Source of the DNA: a virus
IMG/VR virus record: IMGVR_UViG_3300027770_001980
Location: 157,357 to 221,356 of that record
DNA: 64,000 nt
Strand: one strand, 5' to 3'
Positions within the stretch are counted from its first letter, which is position 1; each line of letters opens with the position of its first letter. The position numbers and the translations under genes are program-made. Below are positions 2,622 through 63,925 of this stretch, in pieces. Under the pieces are notes generated by a model. It searched no databases. It was not told the origin of the DNA and saw only the letters and a list, made by a program, of their open reading frames with translations.

Positions 2622-2636
2622 TTAAAAGAGAAATAT

Positions 2637-3536
2637 ATGGCAATTTTAAATTTTCCAAAATTTCCAAATGATGGAGATCTATTTACTCCACCCGGAAGTA
2701 CAAAAACATATGTTTGGCGAGCTGCGGCTAATGCATGGCTAATTTCTAACGCACAAAATACTGCTACAACGGTACAGGCATTTACAGTAGAAGTTACTTC
2801 GTCAACTAATTCAATATCAACAGAAACCGGTTCATTGATTGTTCGTGGTGGTGTTGGTATCGGCGGGGATGTACACGTCGGTGGTGTGATATATTCCGGC
2901 GGGGTGCCTGCTCTAACAACAGCAAGTTTTAATAATACAATCGGAGAAGGTAGTGATATTGATATCACCACGGTAACCGATCCTCTTTCTGGGCTTGACA
3001 CTTTATATTTTTCCGATATATCAACATTGGCCAGTGTGACAGGACGTGGTGCTACTACCCCTGAAATTGTACGCTTTACTAATTCAACTAACTCTACAGC
3101 AACTAATAATGGTGCTATTGTAGTCAGCGGTGGAGTTGGTATTGCAGGAAGGGTAAATACAGAAAGTATTAAAATTGCAGATACTGTATTTGACTCTACT
3201 AAGACAACAGTAGATACAGTTACAGAAAATGTGATTGATACTTATTTGTTAAGTCAATATAGATCGTCAAAATATTTTATACAGATTGGTGAATCGTACG
3301 AGTTATATGGTACCGTTAATCCACGATTCCAATCGGTTGAAATAAACTTAACAGCGAAGAATGATGGAACACCATATCTAACACAGTATGGTCAGGTTAC
3401 CACAGATGGAGAGTTAGGAACTTTTAGTGCAAGAGGAGATGTAAGTGGAAGTGATATTACAATATCGTTAACTTTTACGCCAATCGATACTGAACCTAAA
3501 ATAATTAAGGTACTAAGGACGGCAATGGTCTCCTAA
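2637..3536 (+). CDS. Fibre-family structural protein, 299 aa
   Basis: ATG with AAGAGA Shine-Dalgarno, 15 bp after the previous gene. The N-terminus (FPKFPNDGDLFTPPGSTKTYVW) resembles a short adaptor domain found at the start of several aquatic phage fibre proteins. It then has two copies of the fibre repeat motif, TGSLIVRGGVGIGGDVHVGG near residue 64 and NGAIVVSGGVGIAG near 160. The C-terminal half is beta-rich with no further repeats. The shared repeat with its neighbours makes a structural, fibre-associated role likely; its order in the fibre is unknown. Confidence 0.65.
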   Translation: MAILNFPKFPNDGDLFTPPGSTKTYVWRAAANAWLISNAQNTATTVQAFTVEVTSSTNSISTETGSLIVRGGVGIGGDVHVGGVIYSGGVPALTTASFNNTIGEGSDIDITTVTDPLSGLDTLYFSDISTLASVTGRGATTPEIVRFTNSTNSTATNNGAIVVSGGVGIAGRVNTESIKIADTVFDSTKTTVDTVTENVIDTYLLSQYRSSKYFIQIGESYELYGTVNPRFQSVEINLTAKNDGTPYLTQYGQVTTDGELGTFSARGDVSGSDITISLTFTPIDTEPKIIKVLRTAMVS

Positions 3537-3550
3537 TTAAAGGAATAAAA

Positions 3551-8770: not shown

Positions 8771-8991
8771 TGCCTATAGTAGCATCACGTTTGACCTCAA
8801 CAGGTACATTGTTTATCAGTGGAGAATTTAATGAAGTCACTACGTCGACTATACGTTTAACCACCACTACTTATTATGCCGCAGGGTTTGATGAGGTGTC
8901 AATTCGTGGTGGCAGTGTAGCAAAGCGTGAAACAACTACAGGTACATTACTGGTATCTAATGGATTTGATGAAGTTAACAAACCCGTTTAA
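8770..8991 (+). CDS. Small fibre-region protein with three FDEV repeats, 73 aa
   Basis: Start codon overlaps the stop of the giant fibre gene (TAATG), implying coupled translation. The protein contains three spaced repeats, GEFNEV, AGFDEV and NGFDEV, in a Thr/Ser-rich background, with no hydrophobic segment. Similar tiny proteins beginning MPI..RLTSTGTL accompany structural genes in T4-like aquatic phages (recalled, not searched). It may decorate or cap the fibre; the function is unknown. Confidence 0.6.
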   Translation: MPIVASRLTSTGTLFISGEFNEVTTSTIRLTTTTYYAAGFDEVSIRGGSVAKRETTTGTLLVSNGFDEVNKPV

Positions 8992-9012
8992 CATTTAGGT
9001 AAATATTATACT

Positions 9013-13191: not shown

Positions 13192-13202
13192 TATAGTCAA
13201 TT

Positions 13203-15158
13203 ATGCCAAGTTTTATTAATGCCTCAACAACAGGATCGGGCGGACTTATCGCATTTGGTGATAATTCTGGAATATTAGATTTCCAAACTGGTAGCAGTAC
13301 AAAGATGCGTATTGACTCCAGCGGGAATGTGAGCATTAATACAAGCACCGCAGTTTCTCAAAGTAAACTAACAGTAAACGGTTCTATCAGTTCAACTGGA
13401 TCTGACGGTAGATTTGGCAGCGGTGGTCAACGAGCAATATTTGATATTGAACAAATTGGAATATGGACTGCACGAATCGGAGCAACATCCGGAGGTGTGA
13501 CTACAGGAACTAATCTTGGATTTTATGTAGGAACCAGCGCTGGCAGTAACTCTCAGGCTATGCTCATTACTTATAATGGCGCTATTGCATTTGGTGGTAC
13601 AACTAATTATGGATCAACCGGAACAATTTTACAGAGCAACGGCAATGCTCCTCCAACCTGGGTCGATACATCGAGTATAGTAGCAGGTTCAACCCCATTG
13701 ACAAATACATATGTTGGATATGGTGCCAGTGGCGTATTATCAGGAAGTAGTAATTTAACATGGAGTGGATCACAGTTATATATTAATGGTGGATCACTAT
13801 CAACTCTTACTAATAGTCAAATAATTGCACAGCGTTTTCAAGTCTCAAGTACCAACGCTGACTATTTAGAAATTAGCAATGTTCGTGGCACAACAGGCGC
13901 AGGATGGAATCAAGCAGGTTGGAGAATTCAACAAAAAATTGATAGTACCTGGATGGCATACATTCAGTTTAACGGTACAAGAACTGGCACTAACGATAGT
14001 GGAATGAGTTTCGGTACTGGTAGTACTACTGCCTTTGCAAATACTGTCAGTGAGCGTATGCGTATTGATCAGGACGGCAACGTGGGTATCGGACCAAACG
14101 GTACTGATGCTAATGTTAGATTGTTGGTACAGAATAGTGGTAATCAGAATGTCGCTTGGTTTAAAAATTTCAGTGGAACAAGAGCAGCACCAATAGAAAA
14201 TGCCGATTGGCCATGGCCTGTTATGACATTGTCTGGATATGGCAATTTTTACCGACAAAATATGCTGTCATTTACATTGCCAAATGATGCCAAGAGTCAA
14301 ACAAACGGTATATATCACACAGACGATAGTGTTTGGAATTTTTCACTCAATGGTGTAACAGGTGTAAATAGTTGGGATAATGCGTCTGGCAGCACCACTC
14401 CTGCTACAACATCAACCACTTCTACCGGTCTACAATTATTAGGTCCTGGTAATTTACGTTTAGGCACCACCGCCTCCAACAGTATATTTTTTAGAACTTC
14501 CAACGTTGATAGGGCTACAATTCATCCTAACGGTTATATGAGTATAGGCGGCAACTTAGCATCATCAAGCCAGTTGAATATCAGTGGTAGTAATCAAAGG
14601 GGTGGCGCTTCCTACCACGATTTCTTATATGTAAACAGTACATATGCCAGCGTCACAACTGGTAGCAAATCTTTTAGATTAGGTGCCGCTGGCACGGTAG
14701 AAATAGTCAATGCTGCATATACTTTGGTGATATTCAATCTTACAGATGCCGGGGCACTAAGTGTAACTAATGAAATTACAGCATATTCTTCAGATAAGAG
14801 ATTAAAGACCGACGTTAGACCTATTGATAATGCTATCGATAAAGTAAAATCATTAAACGGTATTATCTATAAATGGAATGATTTAGCAAATAGTTTGGCA
14901 GGATATAACATCAATGAAGATTTAATTGGATTATTTGCACAAGATGTACAAGCAGTATTACCACAAGCAGTAAGACCTGCACCATTTGACCAAGAAAATG
15001 GTGCAAGCAAATCCGGTGAAGATTATCTAACTGTTCAATATGAAAAACTTGTTCCATTATTAGTAGAAGCGATCAAAGAACAACAGGCTATTATCGAACG
15101 ACAACAAAAACAAATAGATCAGATTCAAGCCATGCTGGCAGAACTGCTCAATAAATAG
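13203..15158 (+). CDS. Tail fibre with C-terminal S74-type self-cleaving chaperone, 651 aa
   Basis: ATG 11 bp after the previous fibre gene. The N-terminal ~500 residues are fibre shaft (MRIDSSGNVSI and MRIDQDGNVGIG modules). The last ~125 residues are an intramolecular chaperone of the Peptidase_S74 / endosialidase CIMCD type. The motif SSDKRLK supplies Ser530 and Lys535, the same five-residue Ser-Lys spacing as the known autoproteolytic dyad. Next come GLFAQDVQAVLP and a heptad-rich tail (KEQQAIIERQQKQIDQIQ) that would form a trimeric coiled coil. Cleavage before Ser530 after trimerisation is expected for the family. It is the only S74 copy in the cluster. Confidence 0.88.
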   Translation: MPSFINASTTGSGGLIAFGDNSGILDFQTGSSTKMRIDSSGNVSINTSTAVSQSKLTVNGSISSTGSDGRFGSGGQRAIFDIEQIGIWTARIGATSGGVTTGTNLGFYVGTSAGSNSQAMLITYNGAIAFGGTTNYGSTGTILQSNGNAPPTWVDTSSIVAGSTPLTNTYVGYGASGVLSGSSNLTWSGSQLYINGGSLSTLTNSQIIAQRFQVSSTNADYLEISNVRGTTGAGWNQAGWRIQQKIDSTWMAYIQFNGTRTGTNDSGMSFGTGSTTAFANTVSERMRIDQDGNVGIGPNGTDANVRLLVQNSGNQNVAWFKNFSGTRAAPIENADWPWPVMTLSGYGNFYRQNMLSFTLPNDAKSQTNGIYHTDDSVWNFSLNGVTGVNSWDNASGSTTPATTSTTSTGLQLLGPGNLRLGTTASNSIFFRTSNVDRATIHPNGYMSIGGNLASSSQLNISGSNQRGGASYHDFLYVNSTYASVTTGSKSFRLGAAGTVEIVNAAYTLVIFNLTDAGALSVTNEITAYSSDKRLKTDVRPIDNAIDKVKSLNGIIYKWNDLANSLAGYNINEDLIGLFAQDVQAVLPQAVRPAPFDQENGASKSGEDYLTVQYEKLVPLLVEAIKEQQAIIERQQKQIDQIQAMLAELLNK

Positions 15159-50905: not shown

Positions 50906-51598
50906 TTATTTTCTGTAGAATTCCGGTGGGTGCGGATTCATATAATGGTCAAGATTACCTGTATTATACATATTGTAGAACCTCGCACCATTTCTACCTA
51001 ACCACATTTCCGGACCGTTCACGGGCGTTACATCGGTCCAGGGATTCTCATAATGTAGAGACGAGGGCAGGGGTATCTTATTGCATTTCCTAATGAAACT
51101 GGATTTTAACCAATATACATTACCACTGAAATGATTGTTGTCACGTAGTAAACTACCAACAGCATCATATCCTTCATCTAACTTGGTGATACAATCTCGC
51201 CAATTTTCAATGGTCCAATAATCCATGATCCATCTCCAATGTTTGCAAGGAATGGCCCTATCTGAAAATCCTTCAACATAAGAAACACCTTTTTGATGTG
51301 TATATAGAGCATAGAAATCTTCAGTTGTATTATCAGCGGTTTCTTTCATTAAACGATTGGTTGTGATCTCTGCATCTCGGGGATCTGATGTTTTAAAAAT
51401 CCAATTTATATTTGAATAATGTCGATATTGTTCTTTAAGATCATCAAAACTGTTTTTATTGTAATGGCAATTGATGTTTAATTCTGCAACATCTAACAAA
51501 CCACTAACTTTCATTTTTGTAATTTGTTCTTCAAAAATTAGTTTTGTATGATTCAAATTTAAATCAATCACATGATAAAAAATTTTAAGATGTGCCAT
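50906..51598 (-). CDS. Putative glycosyltransferase, 230 aa
   Basis: The sequence ALYTHQKGVSYVEG, KHWRWIMDYWTIENWRDCIT, LDEGYDAVGSLL and HFSGNVYWLKSSFIRK is a family pattern I associate with uncharacterised glycosyltransferase-like proteins (THxKG, HFSGNFWW). No DxD is evident in the N-terminal third. Its start is one base from the stop of the next gene upstream in the minus cluster, so three transferases are co-transcribed. Its 3' end abuts the NTase-like gene from the other strand. Confidence 0.6.
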   Translation of the reverse strand: MAHLKIFYHVIDLNLNHTKLIFEEQITKMKVSGLLDVAELNINCHYNKNSFDDLKEQYRHYSNINWIFKTSDPRDAEITTNRLMKETADNTTEDFYALYTHQKGVSYVEGFSDRAIPCKHWRWIMDYWTIENWRDCITKLDEGYDAVGSLLRDNNHFSGNVYWLKSSFIRKCNKIPLPSSLHYENPWTDVTPVNGPEMWLGRNGARFYNMYNTGNLDHYMNPHPPEFYRK

Positions 51599-51599
51599 A

Positions 51600-52304
51600 T
51601 TATGTAGTCCTGGTTAACACCTCTTGCCAATCCACCATCTTTCCAATCACCCATGTGTCACAGTGAGTTGCATATCCAGGAACGGGCGTGATCAAACCCC
51701 TCGATTCCGATAATGCAGAAAATAATTGTGTATCATGAGTCCAACGATCTTCACCACCGCACCACTGTTGAAATAATGATCGATCTTCTATTAGATATCC
51801 TACACGACTGGCAAATGTCATGGTAGTAGAACCAGTTGTACGCCAATGGCAATCTTCGGAAATAATTAGTTTACACAATCGATCAGCATTACTATCCCAA
51901 TACTTGTCCGGATGATCATATAGGCTTACATACGGACAATTTTGAAGTCCTTGCTCTAATATTATATCAGCACCTTCGTGATGTATGTAATCATCTTCAA
52001 CAAAATATACAATCATATCTTTGGGTAATTGTATTGCTTGGTCAAGTGAATATAGAAATGAACCAGCATTGGATCCAAATGTGGTTCTACGTAAATCCAA
52101 TAGGGGATATAGACTATTGAGTTTATCCCATACTTGGTCATCAACTCCGTCGGCTACAACCGTGATATCATGCTCGTTGAATACCGTGGTAAAGTTTTTT
52201 AAACATTTCCATTTGTCAAACCATTCTGGACGATCTGGCGGAGTACGTGGATTTCCGGCATAGTCCGGCATGATCCTAAAACTAAACCTGTAGTATATCT
52301 TCAT
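51600..52304 (-). CDS. Glycosyltransferase-like protein, GT-A type, 234 aa
   Basis: MIVYFVEDDYIHHEGA (97-112) contains the EDD acidic motif of a GT-A metal site after a hydrophobic strand; the region after it (CPYVSLYDHPD, TGSTTMTFASRVGYLI, then GGEDRWTHDTQLFSAL) has the acceptor-loop and general-base character of these enzymes. The start overlaps the GT17 gene by 23 bp, and the 3' end is one base from the next. Donor and acceptor unknown. Confidence 0.65.
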   Translation of the reverse strand: MKIYYRFSFRIMPDYAGNPRTPPDRPEWFDKWKCLKNFTTVFNEHDITVVADGVDDQVWDKLNSLYPLLDLRRTTFGSNAGSFLYSLDQAIQLPKDMIVYFVEDDYIHHEGADIILEQGLQNCPYVSLYDHPDKYWDSNADRLCKLIISEDCHWRTTGSTTMTFASRVGYLIEDRSLFQQWCGGEDRWTHDTQLFSALSESRGLITPVPGYATHCDTWVIGKMVDWQEVLTRTT

Positions 52305-53169
52305 TTCTTTTATTATGAAAGAATGGTGGTTTTCCGAGATTTACTTCTAAAATACCCCATGGCCAATATTCTTGAACAGTTTTCTTACCGCCTGGCGCAA
52401 TGAAGTCTCTGTACTTACTGATGTTGTTTAAAATAGTTTTGGGAAAATACTCATCGAGAATTACTGGCTCCCAAACTTCATTGGGACGGAAATAATCCCG
52501 ACCTCGAGAGATCATATCAGAAACATTTATCTTATCTACAATTGAGGGAATATTGAGCTCTTGATGGCTAAAACTGTTGATTTTATTTTTAATAAATTCT
52601 TCATTACCTAAGTAACTGAAATGCCACCCTGCATGATGCAATTCAATTTTATTTCGACCAGGAACTTCATCCATTTTGAATCTCATGCTGTTGGGTGCGG
52701 CTTGAAATCCTCTATAGGCTTTACCTCTCCATGGATAATTGTCTGTAACATCCAGATAGTTGTATTTGAAATAGAACATGGGCATCGCTAATCCATAAAA
52801 GGAATAATTGGTATCTCTGATATATTGAAATGCCTCGGCTCTGGTGATTTCATCCATATCACTGATGAGAATCACATCATCATCTGTTAAGTCTTTCCAT
52901 CCTCTTGCTTGTTGATTACGTTGCCATTCTTCATTGACCCAGGCATTGGAATCTGTGGGAGAATTTTCAACTTTGATGTAATCAATTTTATCCATCCATT
53001 GACTATATCTGTCAAGATTCTTTTCCAGATTGAATCCTTTGTATATTCCACTATAGGTCCTGTCACATTCAACTATGACAAACTTGTCTACGTGGTCGTA
53101 GTGCTCTCTTAATCGTAATTCTAAAAGATCATACTCATTTAAGAACATGACCGTATCGTATATTTTCAT
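52282..53169 (-). CDS. Glycosyltransferase family 17-like protein, 295 aa
   Basis: The opening IYDTVMFLNEYDLLELRLRE and VIVECDRTYSG, the acidic motif DDDVILISDMDEITR (DMDE at 104-107), and GWHFSYLG with the following FSHQE match GT17, the family of bisecting GlcNAc transferases (MGAT3-like) that has many bacterial and phage members. It leads the minus-strand transferase operon. It has a TAAATA box 31 bases upstream, with AAAGG as ribosome site, so it is probably expressed late. Confidence 0.8.
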   Translation of the reverse strand: MKIYDTVMFLNEYDLLELRLREHYDHVDKFVIVECDRTYSGIYKGFNLEKNLDRYSQWMDKIDYIKVENSPTDSNAWVNEEWQRNQQARGWKDLTDDDVILISDMDEITRAEAFQYIRDTNYSFYGLAMPMFYFKYNYLDVTDNYPWRGKAYRGFQAAPNSMRFKMDEVPGRNKIELHHAGWHFSYLGNEEFIKNKINSFSHQELNIPSIVDKINVSDMISRGRDYFRPNEVWEPVILDEYFPKTILNNISKYRDFIAPGGKKTVQEYWPWGILEVNLGKPPFFHNKRNEDILQV

Positions 53170-53200
53170 TGGTTACCTTTATATTATGCATCGATGACGA

Positions 53201-53248
53201 TATTTATTAATGACTTGTATTGCTGAAAAAATTATAGTATACTATAAT
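53201..53248. promoter_or_regulatory. Divergent regulatory region of the two glycosyltransferase operons
   Basis: On the minus strand a TAAATA box (53206 to 53201) serves the GT17 operon with a 31-base leader. On the plus strand TTGCTG (53220-53225), 17 bp, TATAAT (53243-53248) forms a sigma-70-type promoter 35 bases before the GT9-like ATG. The -10 is part of an 18-bp perfect palindrome (53231-53248, ATTATAGTATACTATAAT) that offers TATAAT on both strands. Confidence 0.6.
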
Positions 53249-53282
53249 TAAAATAAGTAAACAATACAAAAGGAAGTTAATA

Positions 53283-54179
53283 ATGCAGGCACTTTTCACA
53301 GGGGGTTTGGGCGATTTTATTGGAGCCGAATCTTTTATGACCGATCAGGAAAAAGATTCAGTTACTACTATACTTTGGGCAACCAGAAACAGAATTGAAA
53401 TACAAGAGGCTGTGGATCTACAATTGGTATTTCCTAACTTGAAAGATCAAAAGATTATGTTCGACGATTGGGCTACTGAACGTCCTACACGCGATTGGCA
53501 ACCCGGCGATCGTTTTATGAACATAGGCATGAAACACGAACTTAATCTTAAATGCAATTTGGGACTAAGTTCAGAGGAACTTGCGGCAATTAGTGATCAT
53601 AGTTTGGATGCTACACTACAACGTATATTCTCCGGACTTAAATGGCAAAGCAGTAGAACAGCTACACGGGGAAATTGGCCATCTGTAGAATACTTGAATC
53701 TACCCGCTAACTATGTGGTTATACATCCATGGAGCGATGCAGAGATTAACGGTAGAGAATTCAATGACGCCGATTGGGATCAGATTTTCCAATTCTTGGA
53801 TAGAGAGGGTATGTTGGGTGTAGTGGTTAATAAAAGCAATAAACTTCCGCCCTCACACCCGAAATTAATCGATCTTACTAATCAAACTTCTTTAAAAGAA
53901 ACATTTAATGTTATGAGGGGCGCAGCCGCTGCTATACTTTGTGCCAGTAGCTTGGCATGTTTGGCTACTAAAATGTTTTCTAAAGGAGCTATCGTCCTTA
54001 AGGGAGGCTATCCACATATGTTTACAGACTGGGCTACTTATTTTTATCACGGCCCTTTTACTAATCCTAACGATATAATCTATAAAGACCTTGCTATAAT
54101 AAATCCAATTCCAAAAAATACTAACACATACTACAACACTCCTGCTGGGTTGGATCAGGGCTATTTAACTTTATTATAA
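53283..54179 (+). CDS. GT9-like glycosyltransferase (heptosyltransferase-related), 298 aa
   Basis: MQALFTGGLGDFIGAESFM has the GxGD entry loop of GT-B heptosyltransferases. The second domain has VVIHPWSDAEINGREFN (about 142-158) and LIDLTNQTSLKETFNVMRGA, then ILCASSLACLATKMFSKG, the nucleotide-sugar pocket of GT9-like proteins. The family adds heptose or similar sugars to LPS core. Strong AAGGAAG Shine-Dalgarno and a good sigma-70 promoter. It heads a plus-strand operon of three transferases. Confidence 0.68.
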   Translation: MQALFTGGLGDFIGAESFMTDQEKDSVTTILWATRNRIEIQEAVDLQLVFPNLKDQKIMFDDWATERPTRDWQPGDRFMNIGMKHELNLKCNLGLSSEELAAISDHSLDATLQRIFSGLKWQSSRTATRGNWPSVEYLNLPANYVVIHPWSDAEINGREFNDADWDQIFQFLDREGMLGVVVNKSNKLPPSHPKLIDLTNQTSLKETFNVMRGAAAAILCASSLACLATKMFSKGAIVLKGGYPHMFTDWATYFYHGPFTNPNDIIYKDLAIINPIPKNTNTYYNTPAGLDQGYLTLL

Positions 54180-54191
54180 GAGAAACAATTT

Positions 54192-54986
54192 ATGACACAA
54201 TTAATATTGGGCGCAGCCTGCGGATATACAACTAAGGAATTGGAACCTTTTGTAAAATCACTACGTAGATACTATCAGGGCGATGCTGTATTAGTGGTAT
54301 TTCCATTGTCTGATAGTGATAGAACCTTTTTTGAACAATATAATATCATTACTTACGAATTGGATCAACCTATTCCTAATCCCAAAGATATACAAACTTA
54401 TAGGTATTACTTCTATAACGAATGTATGGAAAACTTTCCAACCGCAGATCATGTATTGATTATCGATGTTAGAGATGTTATGTTCCAAGACGATCCATTT
54501 AAATATCCATTGACCCATCAATTGGAATTTTATCAGGAACCTTGCCTATATAAAAATTGCCCTGCTAATGCACCTTGGATGCATGGCATGTATTCTCAAT
54601 CGGGATACGACTTGGTTAAAGATGAATATATCCTATGTGGTGGTAGTACTATCGGAACATTCCAAGGCATGTCATTATATATTAATGCTATGATTAAAGA
54701 AATTGAAAGAATACAAGCAACTGGTAGACATATACATTCCGGTGAAGATCAACCTATACATAATTTCTTGGTTTATAATCAAACTTTCCCCGATTGGATT
54801 ACACATCCTAATGCAGAACATGCTATTGCTACTCTTCATCATCAACATCAATTTACCTTTAATCGTGCGGGACAATTGCTAAACAGTCGCAATGAACCAA
54901 TTCCTATTGTACATCAATGGGATCGTACTAATGCAGTTAAAGCGGTTGCCGAACGCACCGCCCTGGAAGGCCCTTTGAAATATTGA
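54192..54986 (+). CDS. Glycosyltransferase, GT-A type with DxxD motif, 264 aa
   Basis: ADHVLIIDVRDVMFQDDPFK (86-105) gives the metal-binding acidic motif Asp92/Asp95 followed by a downstream DDPF common to GT-A galactosyl/xylosyl-type families. Later ILCGGSTIGTFQGMSLYINA and HSGEDQPIHNFLVYN fit the acceptor-binding loop and active-site acidic pair. It has an AAGAGA ribosome site, 12 bp after the GT9-like gene. Specificity unknown. Confidence 0.7.
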   Translation: MTQLILGAACGYTTKELEPFVKSLRRYYQGDAVLVVFPLSDSDRTFFEQYNIITYELDQPIPNPKDIQTYRYYFYNECMENFPTADHVLIIDVRDVMFQDDPFKYPLTHQLEFYQEPCLYKNCPANAPWMHGMYSQSGYDLVKDEYILCGGSTIGTFQGMSLYINAMIKEIERIQATGRHIHSGEDQPIHNFLVYNQTFPDWITHPNAEHAIATLHHQHQFTFNRAGQLLNSRNEPIPIVHQWDRTNAVKAVAERTALEGPLKY

Positions 54987-54990
54987 ACTT

Positions 54991-55848
54991 ATGAAATCTA
55001 ATGAACTAACTATTGCCATTGTCGATACTGCTTTTTATCCTTTGGCAACCCGCAGTATAGAAACAACTCTGGAGATAACCAACGCGAAACGAGTTTTGGT
55101 CTTGAGCGACCGAGACTTCTTTCCCGGCTCTGATTTTGTTAAAATTGATACCATTAATGATAAAAGAGACTACAGTCGGTTGATGCTTAAAGAATTGGGT
55201 CGACATATTACTACCGATCACTTTATGGTTATCCAATACGATGGATTGCCTATCGATACAAGTCAATGGCAAGACGACTTTATGAAATACGACTATATCG
55301 GTGCTACTTGGCCTTGGGGACCCTATGATCAACGTGTGGGCAATGGTGGCTTTAGTATACGTAGTCGTCGTCTACATGAACTGTGCTTACAGGACGAAAT
55401 GGTGTTTGATCCCCCTGGGTATGGTGATAATAACTATATGGAGGATACTCATATATGTCAACTCTATCGTGTTTGGCTTGAGACACAAGGCATTAGATAT
55501 GCTCCTGCTGATTTGGCCAATCAATTTTCAGCCGAATGTCCCGGCGGTCGGTTTGATACATACGGTTTCCATGGCACCCTGTGTTTACCACACTACTTGT
55601 CAGACGACCATATGAAATTCTATATTGATAATCTACCTAACGACTTCTTCTTAGACGAATCTCAAACTCGTATCGTGTTTGGACTGTTTTTAGCTGAACG
55701 CTGGGAGAATATGGAAATGATGATGGACCGCGGTATGACTTTGGATCCCGACTTCTTATCTCGTGTATTCGATTTGTTTAAGAAGGAATCTGGACTTTGG
55801 CCTGGTATGACACTACACGACCTTGAACAGGTTTTGATCAACTATTAG
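54991..55848 (+). CDS. DUF5672-type putative glycosyltransferase, 285 aa
   Basis: The DUF5672 pattern is clear: VLVLSDRDFF, HFMVIQYDGLPIDTSQWQDD, DYIGATWPW, then VGNGGFSIRSR (116-126), MEDTHICQLY, and FHGTLCLP. The family is annotated as probable glycosyltransferase of GT-A type by fold. Four bases separate it from the preceding transferase. The following intergenic carries a new promoter box, so this ends the operon. Substrates are unknown. Confidence 0.75.
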   Translation: MKSNELTIAIVDTAFYPLATRSIETTLEITNAKRVLVLSDRDFFPGSDFVKIDTINDKRDYSRLMLKELGRHITTDHFMVIQYDGLPIDTSQWQDDFMKYDYIGATWPWGPYDQRVGNGGFSIRSRRLHELCLQDEMVFDPPGYGDNNYMEDTHICQLYRVWLETQGIRYAPADLANQFSAECPGGRFDTYGFHGTLCLPHYLSDDHMKFYIDNLPNDFFLDESQTRIVFGLFLAERWENMEMMMDRGMTLDPDFLSRVFDLFKKESGLWPGMTLHDLEQVLINY

Positions 55849-55878
55849 ATGAGTAGTTAATAACTAAACCCACATACT

Positions 55879-58330: not shown

Positions 58331-58584
58331 TCGTCGTTCTCCGCTTGTACTGCCTTGACAGTCCGGATTAGGTCTGTACGCTGGGCTTCAGTCATGTCCG
58401 CAATGATCTCCATACCGTGGACCACACCCGTTTCAAAGCCGTCTTTATAGTGTATGTGATTGCTGGCCAACAGCAGGGCCAGCACACACCAGAACTCCCA
58501 CGTGTCGATAGGGTGTCCAATGACTAATAGGACGAGTCCCAGGCTTAGGCTAACGGCAATGCGTTGTAGTGTATCGTGCATCAT
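58327..58584 (-). CDS. Small membrane protein, 85 aa
   Basis: Residues 8-24 (IAVSLSLGLVLLVIGHP) and about 29-41 (EFWCVLALLLASN) are hydrophobic, suggesting one or two membrane helices with a helical cytosolic tail (ADMTEAQRTDLIRTVKAVQA). It overlaps the ATPase gene by four bases at its start and the zinc-type gene by four at its end. No family recognised. Confidence 0.5.
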   Translation of the reverse strand: MMHDTLQRIAVSLSLGLVLLVIGHPIDTWEFWCVLALLLASNHIHYKDGFETGVVHGMEIIADMTEAQRTDLIRTVKAVQAENDE

Positions 58585-59468
58585 GCTCTCCGCATACAGG
58601 TACCTGCAGCCATCTTAGTCCAGTTAGCGGGAAACTTCTTACGCAGATCAGCCAGCTTCAACACCATACGCAAGCTGAGCTCACGCAGGTTCTTCTGGTT
58701 CTTAACCACGTAGTCAATCAGTTCATCCTCTACACAGGCTTCGAATGCATAGCGTTCCAGCATAGGAGTCTTGCCGGGTTGTGGGTGCTTGATCACCTGC
58801 CGGATACGTAGGATCTTCTCGCGATCGGTATCCATCTGCAGATCGATGTAGTGGCAGCGGCTCTCCAGGGCATCCAAGTGTCCACGCAGTTTCTTACTAC
58901 GGACATGTTCGAACTTGATGTTGGTGATGAAGATAGCGGCACCCTTGAACTCAAAGCGATCTGGAATGCCTTCACTACGCAGGATGCGGCTGTCTGTGTT
59001 CCAGCTGATGAAGCGACGCTCTGAGCTGTCCAGGGCACCTTTCAGGGTGTTCAGTGATTGTTCTTCCATCAAGATGTCGTCACAGTCGTCGAACACCACA
59101 ACGTTGCCTTCGCCTGAGAACTCGTAGAGTTTAGCGTAAAGACCGATTGAGCTCATAGCACCCTTGACCACTTCGAACTTGGGTTTGCGTTCGGCCAGGA
59201 CATTGAACAGATTAGCCTTTTGCAGTACTGCCTCAACGCCAAAGGATTTGCCCACACCAGGAGGGCCCGATACGATCATAGCACGGACATCGCCGGTGCG
59301 GACTGCTTCGGTCATCATGTCCAGGATATCAAAGCGATCTCGCAGGCGGCTATAGATCTCGTCGTCTGTCTCCTTGGCCACTGACTCGTGTGTGCGTTTG
59401 ATGGCCGCCTCGTCGAATTCCAGGATGTTAGTGCCCGCGCTGGGTTTACGTGATGCCTTTGTTGCCAT
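58581..59468 (-). CDS. AAA+ ATPase (early gene), 295 aa
   Basis: Walker A GPPGVGKS (68-75), Walker B VVVFDDCD (123-130), sensor-1 area AAIFITNIKFEHV and an arginine-rich C-terminal helix. The architecture resembles the MoxR/RuvB-like AAA+ proteins found in the early regions of T4-like and other phages; no sliding-clamp-loader zinc or extra domains are seen. Possible roles are DNA-processing motor or chaperone for early complexes. It has the strongest early promoter (P1) 27 bases upstream, with a GAGGAAC-type ribosome site. Confidence 0.82.
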   Translation of the reverse strand: MATKASRKPSAGTNILEFDEAAIKRTHESVAKETDDEIYSRLRDRFDILDMMTEAVRTGDVRAMIVSGPPGVGKSFGVEAVLQKANLFNVLAERKPKFEVVKGAMSSIGLYAKLYEFSGEGNVVVFDDCDDILMEEQSLNTLKGALDSSERRFISWNTDSRILRSEGIPDRFEFKGAAIFITNIKFEHVRSKKLRGHLDALESRCHYIDLQMDTDREKILRIRQVIKHPQPGKTPMLERYAFEACVEDELIDYVVKNQKNLRELSLRMVLKLADLRKKFPANWTKMAAGTCMRRA

Positions 59469-59494: not shown

Positions 59495-59523
59495 ATTATA
59501 ACAGGGGATTGCTCCCCTGTCAA
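59495..59523 (-). promoter_or_regulatory. Early promoter P1
   Basis: Perfect TTGACA (59523 to 59518), 17-bp spacer, perfect TATAAT (59500 to 59495), then ACACAC. The spacer region contains a perfect inverted repeat ACAGGGGA-GCAA-TCCCCTGT spanning the end of the -35 to the start of the -10, like an operator. Confidence 0.92.
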
Positions 59524-59527
59524 GTAT

Positions 59528-59857
59528 TTAATCTGCCCGGCTACCAGCGTAGGCTTGGGTGATGCCCATCTTGCGGAGCACTTCGGCATAGGCCTGGGCA
59601 CCTGCTTCCTTAACGCTCATGCTCTGTGTACCGTGTCCGGATGGGTTCCACAGTTGGAGACCGCCACCGTATGCAGGTTTGAAGCCCACCCGCTTCAATG
59701 CACGGCCCAGTTTGGTGCTGCCTTTTTCGTAGACCGTAACCCAAGCAAAGCCACAATACCAGTCTTCGCCATGCTGGGCGATGTAGTTGTTGGCGGCTTC
59801 TGCGGCGGCTTGGGCGGCAGTGTTATGGATGGATTCGATGTTGTCGATTGCGATCAT
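59528..59857 (-). CDS. Conserved early phage protein, 109 aa
   Basis: Single-gene unit behind promoter P2 with GGAGCACA as ribosome site. Blocks DWYCGFAWVTVYEKGSTKLG, RALKRVGFKPAYGGGLQLWN and PSGHGTQSMSVKEAGAQAYA recur in early genes of T4-like and other phages as far as I recall. Alpha/beta, soluble, no catalytic motif. Function unknown. Confidence 0.62.
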   Translation of the reverse strand: MIAIDNIESIHNTAAQAAAEAANNYIAQHGEDWYCGFAWVTVYEKGSTKLGRALKRVGFKPAYGGGLQLWNPSGHGTQSMSVKEAGAQAYAEVLRKMGITQAYAGSRAD

Positions 59858-59887
59858 AGTGTGCTCCAGTGCGTTGTTGATGTGTGT

Positions 59888-59916
59888 ATTATACTGCGGA
59901 TCTGCCGGATCGTCAA
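59888..59916 (-). promoter_or_regulatory. Early promoter P2
   Basis: TTGACG (59916 to 59911), 17-bp spacer ATCCGGCAGATCCGCAG, TATAAT (59893 to 59888), then ACACAC. The -35 starts one base after the upstream stop codon. The spacer has a tandem GATCCG. Confidence 0.88.
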
Positions 59917-59917
59917 C

Positions 59918-60100
59918 CTATTTCTTCCCAACTTCAGTTGCGACTTGAGGCTTGATCATCTGTACGCAGGTGCCCTTAAATCCCTGCCGTTGTAGATCTT
60001 TGAGGGCCACTTGGCAGGTGGCATCCTCTTGGAACTGCCCCACATAGACCATACTGGGGGAGGTGACGCCCAATCCTACGAGTACAATAGCCCAAAACAT
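59918..60100 (-). CDS. Small protein with N-terminal hydrophobic segment, 60 aa
   Basis: Residues 1-16 (MFWAIVLVGLGVTSPS) could be a membrane anchor or signal peptide; the remainder is polar with two Cys (ATCQVALKDLQRQGFKGTC). Two bases after the upstream gene in the P3 operon. A secreted or periplasmic two-cysteine peptide is possible. No family recognised. Confidence 0.5.
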   Translation of the reverse strand: MFWAIVLVGLGVTSPSMVYVGQFQEDATCQVALKDLQRQGFKGTCVQMIKPQVATEVGKK

Positions 60101-60102
60101 AG

Positions 60103-60306
60103 TTAGTCCTTCTTAGTGACGGTGGTTTTGAACAGGATGCCAAACAGGAACTGTAGTCCCCAAGCCTGTAGCCAACCGATTTCCTTGACTCCATCTACTG
60201 CGGGCACAAGGCATTGATTCCACAGTTCCATCACAGGCCAAGCCAGTAGGAAGGAGAACAGGACCAGGACTACCAGTAGGCCAATGAATGCGGTGATGTA
60301 TTGCAT
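60103..60306 (-). CDS. Small membrane protein, 67 aa
   Basis: A long hydrophobic stretch at residues 3-26 (YITAFIGLLVVLVLFSFLLA) and a second at about 47-60 (WGLQFLFGILFKT) suggest two membrane helices with a basic C-terminus. In the P3 operon, spaced nine bases from its upstream neighbour. Function unknown. Confidence 0.5.
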   Translation of the reverse strand: MQYITAFIGLLVVLVLFSFLLAWPVMELWNQCLVPAVDGVKEIGWLQAWGLQFLFGILFKTTVTKKD

Positions 60307-60315
60307 GATGATTCC

Positions 60316-60534
60316 TTAGAGTGTGAATTGTTTCAGGACGCTTTGGGCTTCGTCCACTTCAGTGACTTCGTCCACAAAGGCCAGGATCATCATCTGGATC
60401 AGTGAGCGGCACTCCGTGCGTTCGGCCTTGGGCAAGGTAGCGATGAATGCTTCCACAGCATCGTATTCCTCCAAAGTCCACATGATGTCGCAAAGGGCCT
60501 TTTGCTTAGGGTTCAGTCCAGCGATAGTGATCAT
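60316..60534 (-). CDS. Small conserved early protein, 72 aa
   Basis: ITIAGLNPKQKALCDIMWTL followed by EEYDAVEAFIATLPKAER and CRSLIQMMILAFVDE is a helical protein recalled from many T4-like phages (L...Q..LCD.MW....L). Overlaps the gene before by four bases in the P3 operon. Unknown function. Confidence 0.6.
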   Translation of the reverse strand: MITIAGLNPKQKALCDIMWTLEEYDAVEAFIATLPKAERTECRSLIQMMILAFVDEVTEVDEAQSVLKQFTL

Positions 60535-60719
60535 TTTGTAGCCTCGTTAGCATAAGAAGCGCCCAGCGCCATGAGTGCAATGCCTACCAGTGCAAAGGTG
60601 CCCAAGTAGACTCCGTCGTAGGTAGCAAGGTCCAAGCACTGCTCGAAACCGCCCATTGTACCTAACAGCAAGATCAATCCTGTGTACAGACAGAATAGGG
60701 CTTTTTGGTGTAGTGTCAT
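60531..60719 (-). CDS. Small membrane protein, 62 aa
   Basis: First gene of the P3 operon. Two hydrophobic segments, 7-21 (LFCLYTGLILLLGTM) and 36-54 (GVYLGTFALVGIALMALGA), suggest a helical hairpin. GGAACACG precedes the ATG. Similar tiny early membrane proteins are common in T4-like phages. Function unknown. Confidence 0.5.
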   Translation of the reverse strand: MTLHQKALFCLYTGLILLLGTMGGFEQCLDLATYDGVYLGTFALVGIALMALGASYANEATK

Positions 60720-60746
60720 ATCGTGTTCCTTTGTTGCTATGTGTGT

Positions 60747-60775
60747 ATTATAGCAGGGTTCTTACACCCTGTCAA
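60747..60775 (-). promoter_or_regulatory. Early promoter P3
   Basis: Perfect TTGACA (60775 to 60770), 17 bp, perfect TATAAT (60752 to 60747), then ACACAC. CAGGGT-GTAAGA-ACCCTG forms an inverted repeat within the promoter, similar in placement to that of P1. Drives four small genes. Confidence 0.92.
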
Positions 60776-60777
60776 CC

Positions 60778-61023
60778 TCATAGATTCTCTCCTGTTTCAG
60801 TGTCGATCCGTCCAGTCACAAAGGCAAAGGATGTAGCAGGTGCTGGGTGATTGTAGAAGTGCTCACGGTTGTGAACTGCCGCATATCCATATGCCTCATC
60901 TTCGGCCGCTCCTGGATATGCCTCACCTTCAACCGCAAACTCTCGCTCGCTTAGGACCTTGTAGAAGTCGGGGCGGGCAGTCTCAGGATTGACCCGGTAT
61001 ACTTGAACATTCCAAACAATCAT
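60778..61023 (-). CDS. Early hypothetical protein, 81 aa
   Basis: Single-gene unit of promoter P4 with GGAGCACG ribosome site. The protein has an N-terminal strand (MIVWNVQVYRVN) and an acidic, aromatic middle (AEDEAYGYAAVHNREHFYNH), ending TGENL. The stop is two bases before the -35 of P3. No family recognised. Confidence 0.5.
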   Translation of the reverse strand: MIVWNVQVYRVNPETARPDFYKVLSEREFAVEGEAYPGAAEDEAYGYAAVHNREHFYNHPAPATSFAFVTGRIDTETGENL

Positions 61024-61053
61024 TTCGTGCTCCTTATTAGTGTCTATGTGTGT

Positions 61054-61082
61054 ATTATAACAGGGTTTTTAGTCTCTGTCAA
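61054..61082 (-). promoter_or_regulatory. Early promoter P4
   Basis: TTGACA (61082 to 61077), 17 bp, TATAAT (61059 to 61054), then ACACACATAG. The -35 is inside the last codons of the upstream gene (Val-Asp-Arg-Asp-stop). Confidence 0.9.
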
Positions 61083-61461
61083 CCAACTCACGACCCAGGC
61101 TCACGCCTTCAGAATAGTAGCCGTTGCTCTCACCAAACCAACGCACATCCACATAGCCCCGGCGGGTAGCGAACTTGTAGAAGGTCCAAGTCACGCTATC
61201 GTGTTCTTCCTCGTTGAAGTCCACAGGTGTTTCGCCCGACACCTCTTCGGCGATCAACAAAGGCTCACCCACCAAGTCCTGCAGGTCACCGCAGATGTCC
61301 TCGATGCTCACATGCTCGCAACAATCCTGCGAGTGGAAGAACACGAAGCGTTCGGTTGCATTCTCGAACACCATCTCATCGCCATTTTGAGTTACCGAAG
61401 TGAACACCTGGCCCACCATGCTTTCGATCTTTGCTTCTGCGTTGTAATCCATGTATCCCAT
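61069..61461 (-). CDS. DUF7448-like early protein, 130 aa
   Basis: VGQVFTSVTQNGDEMVFEN, then HSQDCCEHVSIEDICGDLQD, then TWTFYKFATRRGYVDVRWFG and ESNGYYSEGVSL are the blocks of a domain common in phages of many hosts (DUF7448 as I recall). No catalytic pattern is clear; conservation of QDCCE suggests a functional site. Single gene behind P5. Its final codons contain the -35 of P4. Confidence 0.7.
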   Translation of the reverse strand: MGYMDYNAEAKIESMVGQVFTSVTQNGDEMVFENATERFVFFHSQDCCEHVSIEDICGDLQDLVGEPLLIAEEVSGETPVDFNEEEHDSVTWTFYKFATRRGYVDVRWFGESNGYYSEGVSLGRELVDRD

Positions 61462-61496
61462 TTCGTGCTCCTTAGTGTGTTGCTGTCTATGTGTGT

Positions 61497-61525
61497 ATTA
61501 TAGCACCGTTTGGATGATCAGTCAA
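61497..61525 (-). promoter_or_regulatory. Early promoter P5
   Basis: TTGACT (61525 to 61520), 17 bp, TATAAT (61502 to 61497), then ACACACATAG. The -35 covers the final Val-Asp-stop codons of the upstream gene. Confidence 0.9.
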
Positions 61526-61703
61526 CCGGTTTAAAGGTTCTTCCTTTAAGATCCAGCGTGATAGGCTTGCGGAACTTTACTACACGATCTGACCCTACAG
61601 GGATGTAGGCCAGGGCATTGGCACTGCGAGCACCGGGACGGGTCTTGAAGATGTAGATGTGGTTGGGTGCGTCCCAACGGGTGGTCTCTTCCAGGATGAT
61701 CAT
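61518..61703 (-). CDS. Small early protein, 61 aa
   Basis: Second gene of the P6 unit, overlapping the first by four bases. A compact beta-rich sequence (HIYIFKTRPGARSANALAYI) with a basic C-terminus ending KPVD, where the codons for Val-Asp and stop also encode the -35 of P5. Not recognised. Confidence 0.5.
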   Translation of the reverse strand: MIILEETTRWDAPNHIYIFKTRPGARSANALAYIPVGSDRVVKFRKPITLDLKGRTFKPVD

Positions 61704-61912
61704 ATGGCTCGGAACTTGTTCATGAAGGCCGCGTTGATCATGTCCATCTCGTCCTGCATGACATAGAAGTCAGTGGTTGGGTCATAGTAGGCACCTGCCT
61801 TGGGATCATAGTACAGTACACGACCGGAGAAGTTGAACGGACCTTCCAGACCCTTGCGAGGGCCATACCGGTCACGCATTTGATCTACGGTGTCCATTAC
61901 GCGATATCCCAT
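61700..61912 (-). CDS. Small early protein, 70 aa
   Basis: First gene after P6, with GGAGCAGC as ribosome site. Aromatic-rich (RVLYYDPKAGAYYDPTTDFY) with a helical C-terminus (EMDMINAAFMNKFRAI). Similar sequences in other phages are remembered only vaguely. Function unknown. Confidence 0.5.
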   Translation of the reverse strand: MGYRVMDTVDQMRDRYGPRKGLEGPFNFSGRVLYYDPKAGAYYDPTTDFYVMQDEMDMINAAFMNKFRAI

Positions 61913-61938
61913 GTGCTGCTCCTTGTTGCGATGTGTGT

Positions 61939-61967
61939 ATTATAGCACCGTTCTTAAACCTTGTCAA
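61939..61967 (-). promoter_or_regulatory. Early promoter P6
   Basis: TTGACA (61967 to 61962), 17 bp, TATAAT (61944 to 61939), then ACACACATCG. The -35 lies inside the Val-Asp-Lys-Val-stop codons of the 59-aa gene. Confidence 0.9.
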
Positions 61968-62133
61968 CCTCTTGCGAGGCACGCCACGCATCCATATAGG
62001 CCTTACGCTCGGCACGCACCTTGAGGATGCTCAGTTCGAAGCGGCGGTTATAGTAGGCCCATGCACCGTTATCCACCCAACCCTGGCGGCTGCATCGCAC
62101 CTTGTTTACCTTGTGTTTACGCATTTTCATCAT
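61954..62133 (-). CDS. Very small basic early protein, 59 aa
   Basis: Two tandem ATGs follow promoter P7 and an AAAGAGC site. Translation gives MMKMRKHKVNKVRCSRQGWV, then a helix with NRRFELSILKVRAERKAYMD and ends SQEVDKV. It is strongly basic with Trp and Arg, so nucleic-acid or host-protein binding is possible. It is the only gene between P7 and P6, and the -35 of P6 overlaps its 3' end. Its reality rests on this consistent cassette architecture. Confidence 0.6.
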   Translation of the reverse strand: MMKMRKHKVNKVRCSRQGWVDNGAWAYYNRRFELSILKVRAERKAYMDAWRASQEVDKV

Positions 62134-62157
62134 ATGCTCTTTAGTGTCTATGCGTGT

Positions 62158-62186
62158 ATTATAGCACCGTTTGGATCACTTGTCAA
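62158..62186 (-). promoter_or_regulatory. Early promoter P7
   Basis: TTGACA (62186 to 62181), 17 bp, TATAAT (62163 to 62158), then ACACGC. The -35 covers the Val-Asp-Lys-stop codons of the upstream 76-aa gene. Confidence 0.9.
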
Positions 62187-62406
62187 CCGGCGTTTTCATC
62201 TTCTCCAACAATTCTTGATGCTCCAACTGGCCCAAGGTCATGCTATACACAATGTAGATGAAGAATCCAACGAATCCAGCCATTAGGATCCATGCTCCTT
62301 GTTGGGCTGTGAGTAGGCTTATGATAAAGGTGAGTGTCAGTGACAGTGCGATGGACCCAGAGATGAGTCCCACGGTGTAGAGTATTGCTCGGGTTTTTAA
62401 GTTCAT
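62176..62406 (-). CDS. Small membrane protein, 76 aa (early)
   Basis: Two hydrophobic segments, about 8-33 (LYTVGLISGSIALSLTLTFI) and 39-58 (WILMAGFVGFFIYIVYSMTL), with a helical charged C-terminus (EHQELLEKMKTPVDK). Overlaps the upstream gene by four bases. Second gene of the P8 unit. Function unknown. Confidence 0.5.
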   Translation of the reverse strand: MNLKTRAILYTVGLISGSIALSLTLTFIISLLTAQQGAWILMAGFVGFFIYIVYSMTLGQLEHQELLEKMKTPVDK

Positions 62407-62780
62407 ACGGTTTCCTTTTTAAAATAACGATAGGGCAAGCCAACCAAGTAGCACAGGAACTCGTCATCACCGTTGCTACCTTCAGCCTCGTGGATCCAAC
62501 GCATGGCCATCTCACGATCTTTAGCACCGCAGGCCAGGATGCTCTGCACTCGCATCTCAAAGGCGTGTGCGGCCTCGTGCTCTTCGAGCTTGCGCTCTTG
62601 CTCGTTCTTGCCAATCAAGTCCTGCAGGTAGTCAAACTCGGCGTTAAAGGTGGCCTCGTCCCAAGCGGAGGTATCGATACCGCGTGGACGAACGCCGTGG
62701 GCATCCTTGTACATGTCCCAGAACTGGCAGGCCATCTGCTCGAGGACTGTCATCTCTTCCCAGCTTTTGAATTCTTCCAT
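62403..62780 (-). CDS. Conserved early phage protein, 125 aa
   Basis: I start at ATG 62780 (MEEFKSWEEMTVLEQMACQF), right after promoter P8 and a GGAGCACA site; the frame is open back to 62939 but would run through the promoter and overlap the next gene. The block WDMYKDAHGVRPRGIDTSAW is typical of a domain in many phage early proteins (YKDxxGxRPR). The rest is acidic and helical. Function unknown. Confidence 0.68.
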   Translation of the reverse strand: MEEFKSWEEMTVLEQMACQFWDMYKDAHGVRPRGIDTSAWDEATFNAEFDYLQDLIGKNEQERKLEEHEAAHAFEMRVQSILACGAKDREMAMRWIHEAEGSNGDDEFLCYLVGLPYRYFKKETV

Positions 62781-62813
62781 TGTGTGCTCCGTTGTGTTGC
62801 TGTCTATGTGTGT

Positions 62814-62842
62814 ATTATAGCACCGAAATAAAGACCTGTCAA
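62814..62842 (-). promoter_or_regulatory. Early promoter P8
   Basis: TTGACA (62842 to 62837), 17 bp, TATAAT (62819 to 62814), then ACACACATAG. The TGA stop of the upstream 61-aa gene lies inside the -35 hexamer. Confidence 0.92.
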
Positions 62843-63024
62843 CCGAAATTTTCGGCAACAATGTCTTCCATATCTTCGCCGTGGAAGTCAACATAGATGC
62901 CCTCCACATGCCATTCCAAGAACTTTTGGATTTGAGCATCTGTGGGGGTTACATTGCCGTAGACCTCGGCAGATCGTCGGATAGTGTCTATGACTTTTTT
63001 AGGGATGTCGATGGTAACTTTCAT
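62839..63024 (-). CDS. Small early protein, 61 aa
   Basis: Second gene of the P9 unit, with its Shine-Dalgarno (AAGGAG) overlapping the previous stop. N-terminus MKVTIDIPKKVIDTIRRSAE resembles a short strand plus helix as in ribbon-helix-helix regulators, then PTDAQIQKFLEWHVEGIYVD. I recall related short proteins (TDAQIQ.F...) in other T4-like phages. Regulatory DNA binding is a guess. Confidence 0.55.
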   Translation of the reverse strand: MKVTIDIPKKVIDTIRRSAEVYGNVTPTDAQIQKFLEWHVEGIYVDFHGEDMEDIVAENFG

Positions 63025-63034
63025 TTGGAACTCC

Positions 63035-63148
63035 TTAGATAGATGCCAATGTCCACATAGCCACCATTACATAGGTGGCGCAGAGTTGAGCGATGCCAAA
63101 GTGGAATGCGGCCCAAACTACGGTGCCCCAACCAATCAAATTAATCAT
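63035..63148 (-). CDS. Very small hydrophobic early peptide, 37 aa
   Basis: First gene after promoter P9, with CTGGAGCAAGAG as ribosome site. The product (MINLIGWGTVVWAAFHFGIA then QLCATYVMVAMWTLASI) is almost entirely hydrophobic and would be a single or double membrane helix. The stop overlaps the next gene's AAGGAG, so coupling is likely. Small size limits certainty, but the promoter and ribosome site support it. Confidence 0.5.
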   Translation of the reverse strand: MINLIGWGTVVWAAFHFGIAQLCATYVMVAMWTLASI

Positions 63149-63175
63149 CTCTTGCTCCAGTGTGTGTAAGCGTGT

Positions 63176-63204
63176 ATTATAACGCAAAAAGGGGCTGTTG
63201 TCAA
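63176..63204 (-). promoter_or_regulatory. Early promoter P9 with the -35 in a terminator loop
   Basis: TTGACA (63204 to 63199), 17 bp, TATAAT (63181 to 63176), then ACACGC. On the minus strand AAAGGGG-TTGACAACAG-CCCCTTT followed by TT is a terminator-like hairpin whose loop contains the -35 hexamer. Confidence 0.85.
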
Positions 63205-63218
63205 CCCCTTTGTTGTTA

Positions 63219-63629
63219 TTACAGTTCCATGCTCGCGTAGCCGTCGTCTTGCATACCTTGCTCTGTAAAGTCTACATCTGTTCCCAGCAACTCGCTCACA
63301 GCATCGCTAAAGCCGTTGTCTGTGTACAGCCGCCAGCTGCCTTCTACTTCAGCACCGTCTTCGCCGTCCACTTCGTAAGTCACTCCAATGTGTGCGTAAA
63401 CGCTCTGTGTGTAAACGTCCCCGTCGTCTTCGTCAAACGTTTCGCTAATGTGTACGCCCGTAATAGTAACCGCTTTCAGTTCGCAGTCCCATATGCTGTC
63501 ACCTGCCAGTTGCACTTCTACGTTGCACTTGTATTCCGTGTGCAGTGTGTCGTCGTCTTCAACACCAGTGTGTACCAGTGTCAGTTTGTCGCTAACTTTA
63601 GCAAATTGTGTTTTCAGTGCTGTTTGCAT
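63219..63629 (-). CDS. Acidic early protein, 136 aa
   Basis: Single-gene unit after P10 with GGAGCAAG. Very acidic (DEDDGDVYTQSVYAHIGVTY; EVDGEDGAEVEGSWRL) and predicted mostly beta. A DNA-mimic or protein-inhibitor role is possible for such an acidic early protein, but there is no motif evidence. I recall relatives in other phages only as hypothetical. Confidence 0.55.
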   Translation of the reverse strand: MQTALKTQFAKVSDKLTLVHTGVEDDDTLHTEYKCNVEVQLAGDSIWDCELKAVTITGVHISETFDEDDGDVYTQSVYAHIGVTYEVDGEDGAEVEGSWRLYTDNGFSDAVSELLGTDVDFTEQGMQDDGYASMEL

Positions 63630-63658
63630 GTCTTGCTCCGTTTAGTGTTTAAGTGTGT

Positions 63659-63687
63659 ATTATAGCAGTTTAGTCTACTGTTGTCAA
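63659..63687 (-). promoter_or_regulatory. Early promoter P10
   Basis: TTGACA (63687 to 63682), 17 bp, TATAAT (63664 to 63659), then ACACAC. The -35 coincides with the Leu-Thr codons near the end of the 55-aa gene. The spacer holds CAGT-N7-ACTG. Confidence 0.9.
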
Positions 63688-63837
63688 GTCTTTTTGTGCA
63701 ATGTTAAAAATCGCATTATAAGTTGCAATAAGTTCTTCGTCTGTCATTTTGTAGCAAGCACTGTTGGTATCGCATTCCAACTTAATTTGGTACATCATTG
63801 CCCAACGTGTCATCCCGTTTGCAAGTGTCTTTTTCAT
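63670..63837 (-). CDS. Very small early protein, 55 aa
   Basis: Begins MKKTLANGMTRWAMMYQIKL after promoter P11 and an AAAGGAAC site; continues ECDTNSACYKMTDEELIATY and ends DLTTVD. The two Cys and helical pattern do not match a named family. It is the only gene between P11 and P10, and its 3' end contains the -35 of P10. This cassette logic supports it strongly despite its size. Confidence 0.6.
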   Translation of the reverse strand: MKKTLANGMTRWAMMYQIKLECDTNSACYKMTDEELIATYNAIFNIAQKDLTTVD

Positions 63838-63862
63838 CGTGTTCCTTTTTGTTTATGTGTGT

Positions 63863-63891
63863 ATTATAACGCAGAAAAGCACACTTGTTAA
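63863..63891 (-). promoter_or_regulatory. Early promoter P11
   Basis: TTAACA (63891 to 63886), 17 bp, TATAAT (63868 to 63863), then ACACACATAA. The -35 lies in the loop region of a perfect hairpin AGCACACTT-AAC-AAGTGTGCT followed by TTT (63878-63898). Confidence 0.85.
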
Positions 63892-63906
63892 GTGTGCTGT
63901 ATAAAG

Positions 63907-63925
63907 ACCCTACAGTGTGTAGGGT
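63907..63925 (-). terminator. Hairpin after the last (partial) gene
   Basis: ACCCTACA pairs with TGTAGGGT around a three-base loop, beginning at the stop codon of the partial gene. With the second hairpin at 63878-63898 it likely terminates that transcript just before P11 starts the next. Confidence 0.55.

Follow-up and report, generated by a model that had tools for sequence, protein, structure and literature searches.

In the Bacillus phage SPO1, several strong promoters of the host type drive a host-takeover module. RB49 is the type phage for another kind of early promoter unit, the promoter-early stem-loop (PeSL) cassette, in whose definition effective terminator activity of the stem-loop is included, and the PeSL cassettes of RB49/phi1 are reportedly the subject of Arbiol et al. 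2010 (doi 10.1093/gbe/evq006). PeSL cassettes mediate shuffling in T4-type phages, as stated in PMC4503421, which cites Arbiol et al. 2010 and Comeau et al. 2014, and the SPO1 module is described in PMC6873191 as a cluster of 26 genes. SPO1 resembles the locus described here in its clustered small early genes, a likeness limited to the cluster and its promoters, but belongs to another phage group with another host. In this study, we have analyzed an array of host-sigma-70 promoters in an uncultivated, T4-superfamily-like phage, and we consider it quite probable that the promoters serve as regulatory and also as recombination joints between small-gene cassettes, in a PeSL-like manner.

The window, namely the whole stretch of 64,000 nucleotides that was analyzed, corresponds to positions 157357–221356 and hence to the final 64 kb of a 221,356-bp phage contig. 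The promoter row occupies the last 4.4 kb of the window on the minus strand (Table 1), and eleven promoters are a minimum because the contig end cuts the row. The original prediction had claimed eleven minus-strand promoters with an invariant 17-bp spacer, and all eleven sites were indeed found, each with that spacer and with TATAAT exactly as the -10 box; the -35 box is exactly TTGACA in eight, with TTGACG (59916–59911), TTGACT (61525–61520) and TTAACA (63891–63886) in the others. As was also claimed, each promoter is followed by ACACAC or ACACGC, the former at nine sites and the latter at two (62163 and 63181, promoters being named by the position at which TATAAT begins). The window contains 10 matches to TTGACN-17-TATAAT, versus 0.05 expected from shuffles. 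Furthermore, the extended -10 block TATAATACACNCNT is present in 11 copies in the whole 221-kb contig, all of them in the array and on the array strand, and a reversed-pattern control for this block gave 0 matches across the same contig. All eleven promoter motifs are real, far beyond chance, and the array is thereby equipped with the strong sigma-70-like promoters that characterize PeSL. Each promoter had been predicted to drive one to four tiny genes, and ten of them do head one to four small ORFs, the exception being the last (59500), which heads a 295-aa AAA ATPase. The -35 box had been placed inside the upstream gene or at its stop in at least seven cases, and this agrees with six overlaps (61059, 61502, 61944, 62163, 62819 and 63664) and two further boxes no more than 2 nt from the upstream stop (59893 and 60752).

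Table 1. Coordinates in the window of the promoters, hairpins and open reading frames of the array.
Feature	Position	Strand	Remarks
Promoter 1	63863..63891	-	TTAACA-17-TATAAT then ACACACAT; heads ORF 63837-63670
Type II hairpin AGCACACTT-AAC-AAGTGTGCT	63878..63898	-	surrounds -35 of promoter 1; TTT after
Separate hairpin CCCTAC-ACACT-GTAGGG	63908..63924	-	followed by TCTTT; just past stop of gene entering from contig end; read from sequence
55-aa ORF	63670..63837	-	next -35 within last codons
Promoter 2	63659..63687	-	TTGACA-17-TATAAT
19-bp exchange block (candidate) TATAATACACACTTAAACA	63646..63664	-	relative L027: additional cassette between two copies
136-aa ORF	63219..63629	-	
Promoter 3	63176..63204	-	TTGACA-17-TATAAT, ACACGC
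Type II hairpin AAAGGGGTTG-ACAA-CAGCCCCTTT	63188..63211	-	surrounds -35 of promoter 3; T-run within spacer
61-aa ORF	62839..63024	-	TGA stop inside next -35
Promoter 4	62814..62842	-	TTGACA-17-TATAAT; heads ORFs 62780-62403, 62406-62176
Promoter 5	62158..62186	-	TTGACA-17-TATAAT, ACACGC; -35 within upstream ORF; heads ORF 62133-61954
Promoter 6	61939..61967	-	TTGACA-17-TATAAT; -35 within upstream ORF; heads ORFs 61912-61700, 61703-61518
Promoter 7	61497..61525	-	TTGACT-17-TATAAT; -35 overlaps upstream stop; heads ORF 61461-61069 (DUF7448)
Promoter 8	61054..61082	-	TTGACA-17-TATAAT; -35 within upstream ORF; heads ORF 61023-60778
Promoter 9	60747..60775	-	TTGACA-17-TATAAT; heads four ORFs, 60719-59918
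Type I spacer hairpin CAGGGT-GTAAGA-ACCCTG	60754..60771	-	promoter 9
Promoter 10	59888..59916	-	TTGACG-17-TATAAT; heads ORF 59857-59528
Promoter 11	59495..59523	-	TTGACA-17-TATAAT
Type I spacer hairpin ACAGGGGA-GCAA-TCCCCTGT	59501..59520	-	promoter 11; covariation in orthologous promoters
295-aa AAA ATPase	58581..59468	-	phrog_1250; T4-type nrdC.10 relative; anchor for finding relatives

The ORFs of the array, for which mechanical gene calls were used, are mostly 50–136 aa in length, and a search of Pfam/PHROGs left most of them without a known family; a match of an OCRE domain to the ORF at 61703–61912 was barely above the cut-off and is not relied on. Neither a DNA match to the array region among phages in the public collection nor an Rfam match to that region was obtained. 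Elsewhere in the window, several repetitive ORFs of great length (the longest of 1739 aa) lie at positions 1227–15158; GGVGIGG-like and GPGTAGQ-like motifs recur in them, and their products are probably tail-fibre-like proteins. Positions 51000–55850 hold a cluster of ORFs of 230–298 aa on both strands with a glycosyltransferase- or polysaccharide-type look, as judged by sequence appearance. On the plus strand, the first 97 kb of the contig have eleven exact TTGACA-17-TATAAT sites with other leaders; these are scattered over contig positions 5001–96135 (loci L009–L013), the leader being, for example, TAACACATACGCAGCA, and some are preceded by CAAAAACAGG.

Relatives were searched for by using the ATPase downstream of the last promoter, which gave 594 related viral-contig stretches, and 80 of them were kept. 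When promoters with at most one mismatch were collected from these 80 relatives, the spacer was 17 bp in 818 of the 904 on the array strand and in 31 of the 58 on the other strand, and the longest row comprised 35 promoters. A second set, comprising 80 loci that were identified by the motif alone, had the 17-bp spacer in 645 of 694 promoters, which is a weaker check because each locus was chosen by one 17-bp site. The consensus of 557 non-redundant promoters is GG-TTGACA-N14-TGn-TATAAT-ACACAC(A/T)TA, i.e., with an extended -10 and an unstructured leader rich in A/C. In one of the relatives, a 322-kb viral contig (L079), 21 of the 30 array promoters have a 16-bp and not a 17-bp spacer, as if the spacing were set lineage by lineage. 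Also, TTGACA and TATAAT each contain a stop codon (TGA and TAA, respectively) in one frame, and 62 of 411 genes upstream of the array promoters of relatives stop at TGA within the -35 box. The genes around these promoters are small and variable, as in the hyperplastic regions where PeSL are located; indeed, the 1060 called genes fall into 408 families, only 66 of which have at least three members.

The gene content of relatives had been expected to change at the promoter blocks, and it does so far above chance in both indels and ends of homology. Among pairs of relatives, which are not independent of one another (24 upstream and 27 downstream families), there are 61 clean insertions or deletions, and in 39% of these the two ends are each no more than 60 bp away from a promoter, versus 4.4% upon random placement and 13% in the largest of 200 trials. 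Ends of homology, whose exact position in an alignment is blurred by the conserved promoter consensus itself, are at most 40 bp away from a promoter in 23–24% of cases versus 7.6% for random points in the same alignments. In genomes holding both genes, furthermore, neighbours stay adjacent in 43% of cases across a promoter and in 56% without one, which shows that the difference is modest and that gene turnover also occurs within operons. A relative, L027, provides a single event: its match to the window runs through the upstream gene, the -35, the spacer and TATAATACACACTTAAACA of promoter 63664, after which L027 has an additional gene with its own promoter at the end, and the match to the window resumes at the second copy of this 19-bp sequence. 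This comparative evidence indicates that genes are probably gained and lost by recombination at the array promoters, the gain and loss between copies being again a feature of PeSL.

Such patterns might alternatively arise if strong promoters are alike through selection for the same host polymerase and turnover between transcription units is caused otherwise, so that promoters are not sites of recombination at all. We regard this as unlikely: the two ends of the indels are in mutual register at promoters, and the break of L027 falls inside an exact 19-bp repeat, while selection alone is compatible with the majority of homology ends (about 76%) lying away from promoters and with adjacency being just moderately lower across them, and illegitimate recombination at gene ends would produce similar gene-level patterns.

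A finer distinction was obtained from pairs of promoters from different loci, which were classed by the homology of the upstream or the downstream gene. Where only the upstream gene is homologous, the spacer halves are 66–69% identical, versus a background of 29–36%, and identity is down to background past about +20. Where only the downstream gene is homologous, spacer identity is 35–46% and hence near background. In the leader (+14 to +22), identity is 59% with downstream-only homology versus 51% with upstream-only homology and a background of 41%. The linkage of the spacer to the upstream gene is not just a matter of coding sequence, because identity is still 0.64 where 4 nt or more separate the end of that gene from the -35. 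The hexamers, on the other hand, are conserved in every homology class, as selection for the host polymerase would have it, but a non-consensus spacer should not track the upstream gene, nor the leader the downstream gene, under pure functional conservation. The promoter therefore appears, from these alignments, to be split: the -35 and the spacer go with the upstream cassette and the leader with the downstream one. With the spacer tied to the upstream gene and the leader tending to go with the downstream one, the exchange zone would extend from the -10 to about +20. The predicted joint between a gene 3′ end and the next promoter is thus borne out in that a change of the downstream gene leaves the -35 and the spacer with the upstream gene.

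Some of the joints are also able to fold. A hairpin is found at 144 of the 557 promoters of relatives (about 26%) versus about 40 in shuffled controls, and perfect stems of at least 7 bp overlapping the -35 or the spacer occur at 62 of 557 versus 3.6 in column-shuffled controls and, in the second, motif-found set, at 22 of 381 versus 3.0. In the window, four of the eleven promoters have a hairpin and the other seven have none. Two forms can be distinguished: type I lies within the spacer (ACAGGGGA-GCAA-TCCCCTGT) and type II around the -35 (AGCACACTT-AAC-AAGTGTGCT). At the promoter before the ATPase, double changes at two pairs preserve the type I stem in 12 orthologs, a compensatory count that is biased towards the stem by the selection of these orthologs for stem presence. 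A test of pairwise complementarity that took in all 557 promoters gave weak signals because there are two hairpin registers and only a quarter of the sites have a hairpin; support for the hairpins was taken instead from the tests on stem length, orthologs and loops. Of 25 stems with a four-base loop, 17 have GNRA or UNCG as the loop when read on the sense strand and 0 when read on the antisense strand (6 of 12 and 0 of 12, respectively, in the second set). The occurrence of tetraloops only in the direction of transcription points to a hairpin in the RNA of the upstream unit.

The palindromes would have another meaning if they were operators, at which a phage or host regulator binds between the -35 and the -10 for the timing of early genes. 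While many promoters do have a palindrome placed precisely between the two hexamers (-20 to -1) and ACAGGG is common to many stems, the stem sequences are not fixed but vary with compensation, the type II hairpin shifts the palindrome to around the -35, and the four-base loops form RNA tetraloops solely when read on the sense strand, a property for which a DNA operator has no need. Operators are, accordingly, a highly improbable explanation. As for the hairpin in the upstream RNA, a U-run follows some type II hairpins and none of type I, so that termination by type I hairpins is doubtful, and a pattern scan for terminators detected none on the array strand. The hairpin is nonetheless likely to terminate or to protect the 3′ end of the upstream transcript.

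In the mechanism that we propose for the promoter joints, the host RNA polymerase would start at each promoter once the DNA enters, presumably early in infection, and transcribe the one to four genes that follow it. The block from the -10 to the ACACAC leader (about 15–20 bp), repeated at every joint, would provide short homology, and recombination between two copies of the block would delete, insert or swap the intervening cassette, as the comparisons of relatives suggest. Given that the -35 and the spacer would close the upstream cassette, with the -10 and the leader opening the downstream one, exchange would always rebuild a promoter with a 17-bp spacer; such a split joint could explain the invariant spacing, the linkage of the -35 and the spacer itself being demonstrated statistically. 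In about a quarter of the joints, the spacer or the surroundings of the -35 would fold as a hairpin in the upstream transcript and most likely end or protect it. A more far-reaching reading, against which we would still lean slightly, is that promoters arise only by the joining of cassettes that open with a -10 and a leader and close with a -35 and a spacer; recombination at the short -10/leader block would then restore the 17-bp spacing for any partners, and the near-universal spacing would be the compatibility code of a gene-shuffling system across hundreds of uncultured phages.

An exchange site in the promoter core shows how a phage could swap early genes with their expression intact, here in a large group of uncultured phages and over hundreds of promoters. 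It also offers a sequence signature to look for in culturable PeSL phages, namely linkage of the -35 and the spacer to the upstream gene, and of the leader to the downstream one. Moreover, the joints mark cassette boundaries and would aid in finding small early genes of unknown function.

The terminase and the ATPase of the array phage have T4-type relatives, and the closest isolates are the PA5oct group of Pseudomonas jumbo phages (Arenbergviridae), with 54.6% identity in the terminase and 45.8% in the ATPase; unlike in the array phage, however, the stretch around the ATPase homologue of PA5oct is without a promoter row. A comparison within Krischvirus (RB49, JSE, SSG23 and JK32) gave seven indels, none of them at promoters, and these are apparently for the most part homing endonucleases. 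RB49 has some near-identical promoters, which agree with those of the array in spacing, spacer palindromes and leader, for example TTGACA GGGGATCGGTGATCCCC TATACT ACACACATC. The PeSL of T4-type phages combine a strong sigma-70-type promoter with a stem-loop, are located among small variable genes and act as points of gene exchange; the array shares the promoter, the gene setting and probably the exchange, and has a stem-loop at a part of its promoters. The array differs from PeSL in that its promoters are about four times denser (2.5 versus 0.6 per kb), that its hairpins, which are often absent, lie in the spacer or surround the -35, that the upstream gene often includes the -35 in its coding sequence, and that the joint would be split at the -10. 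While the idea of shuffling cassettes itself is already known, the array is hence considered to be a denser and differently arranged variant of PeSL.
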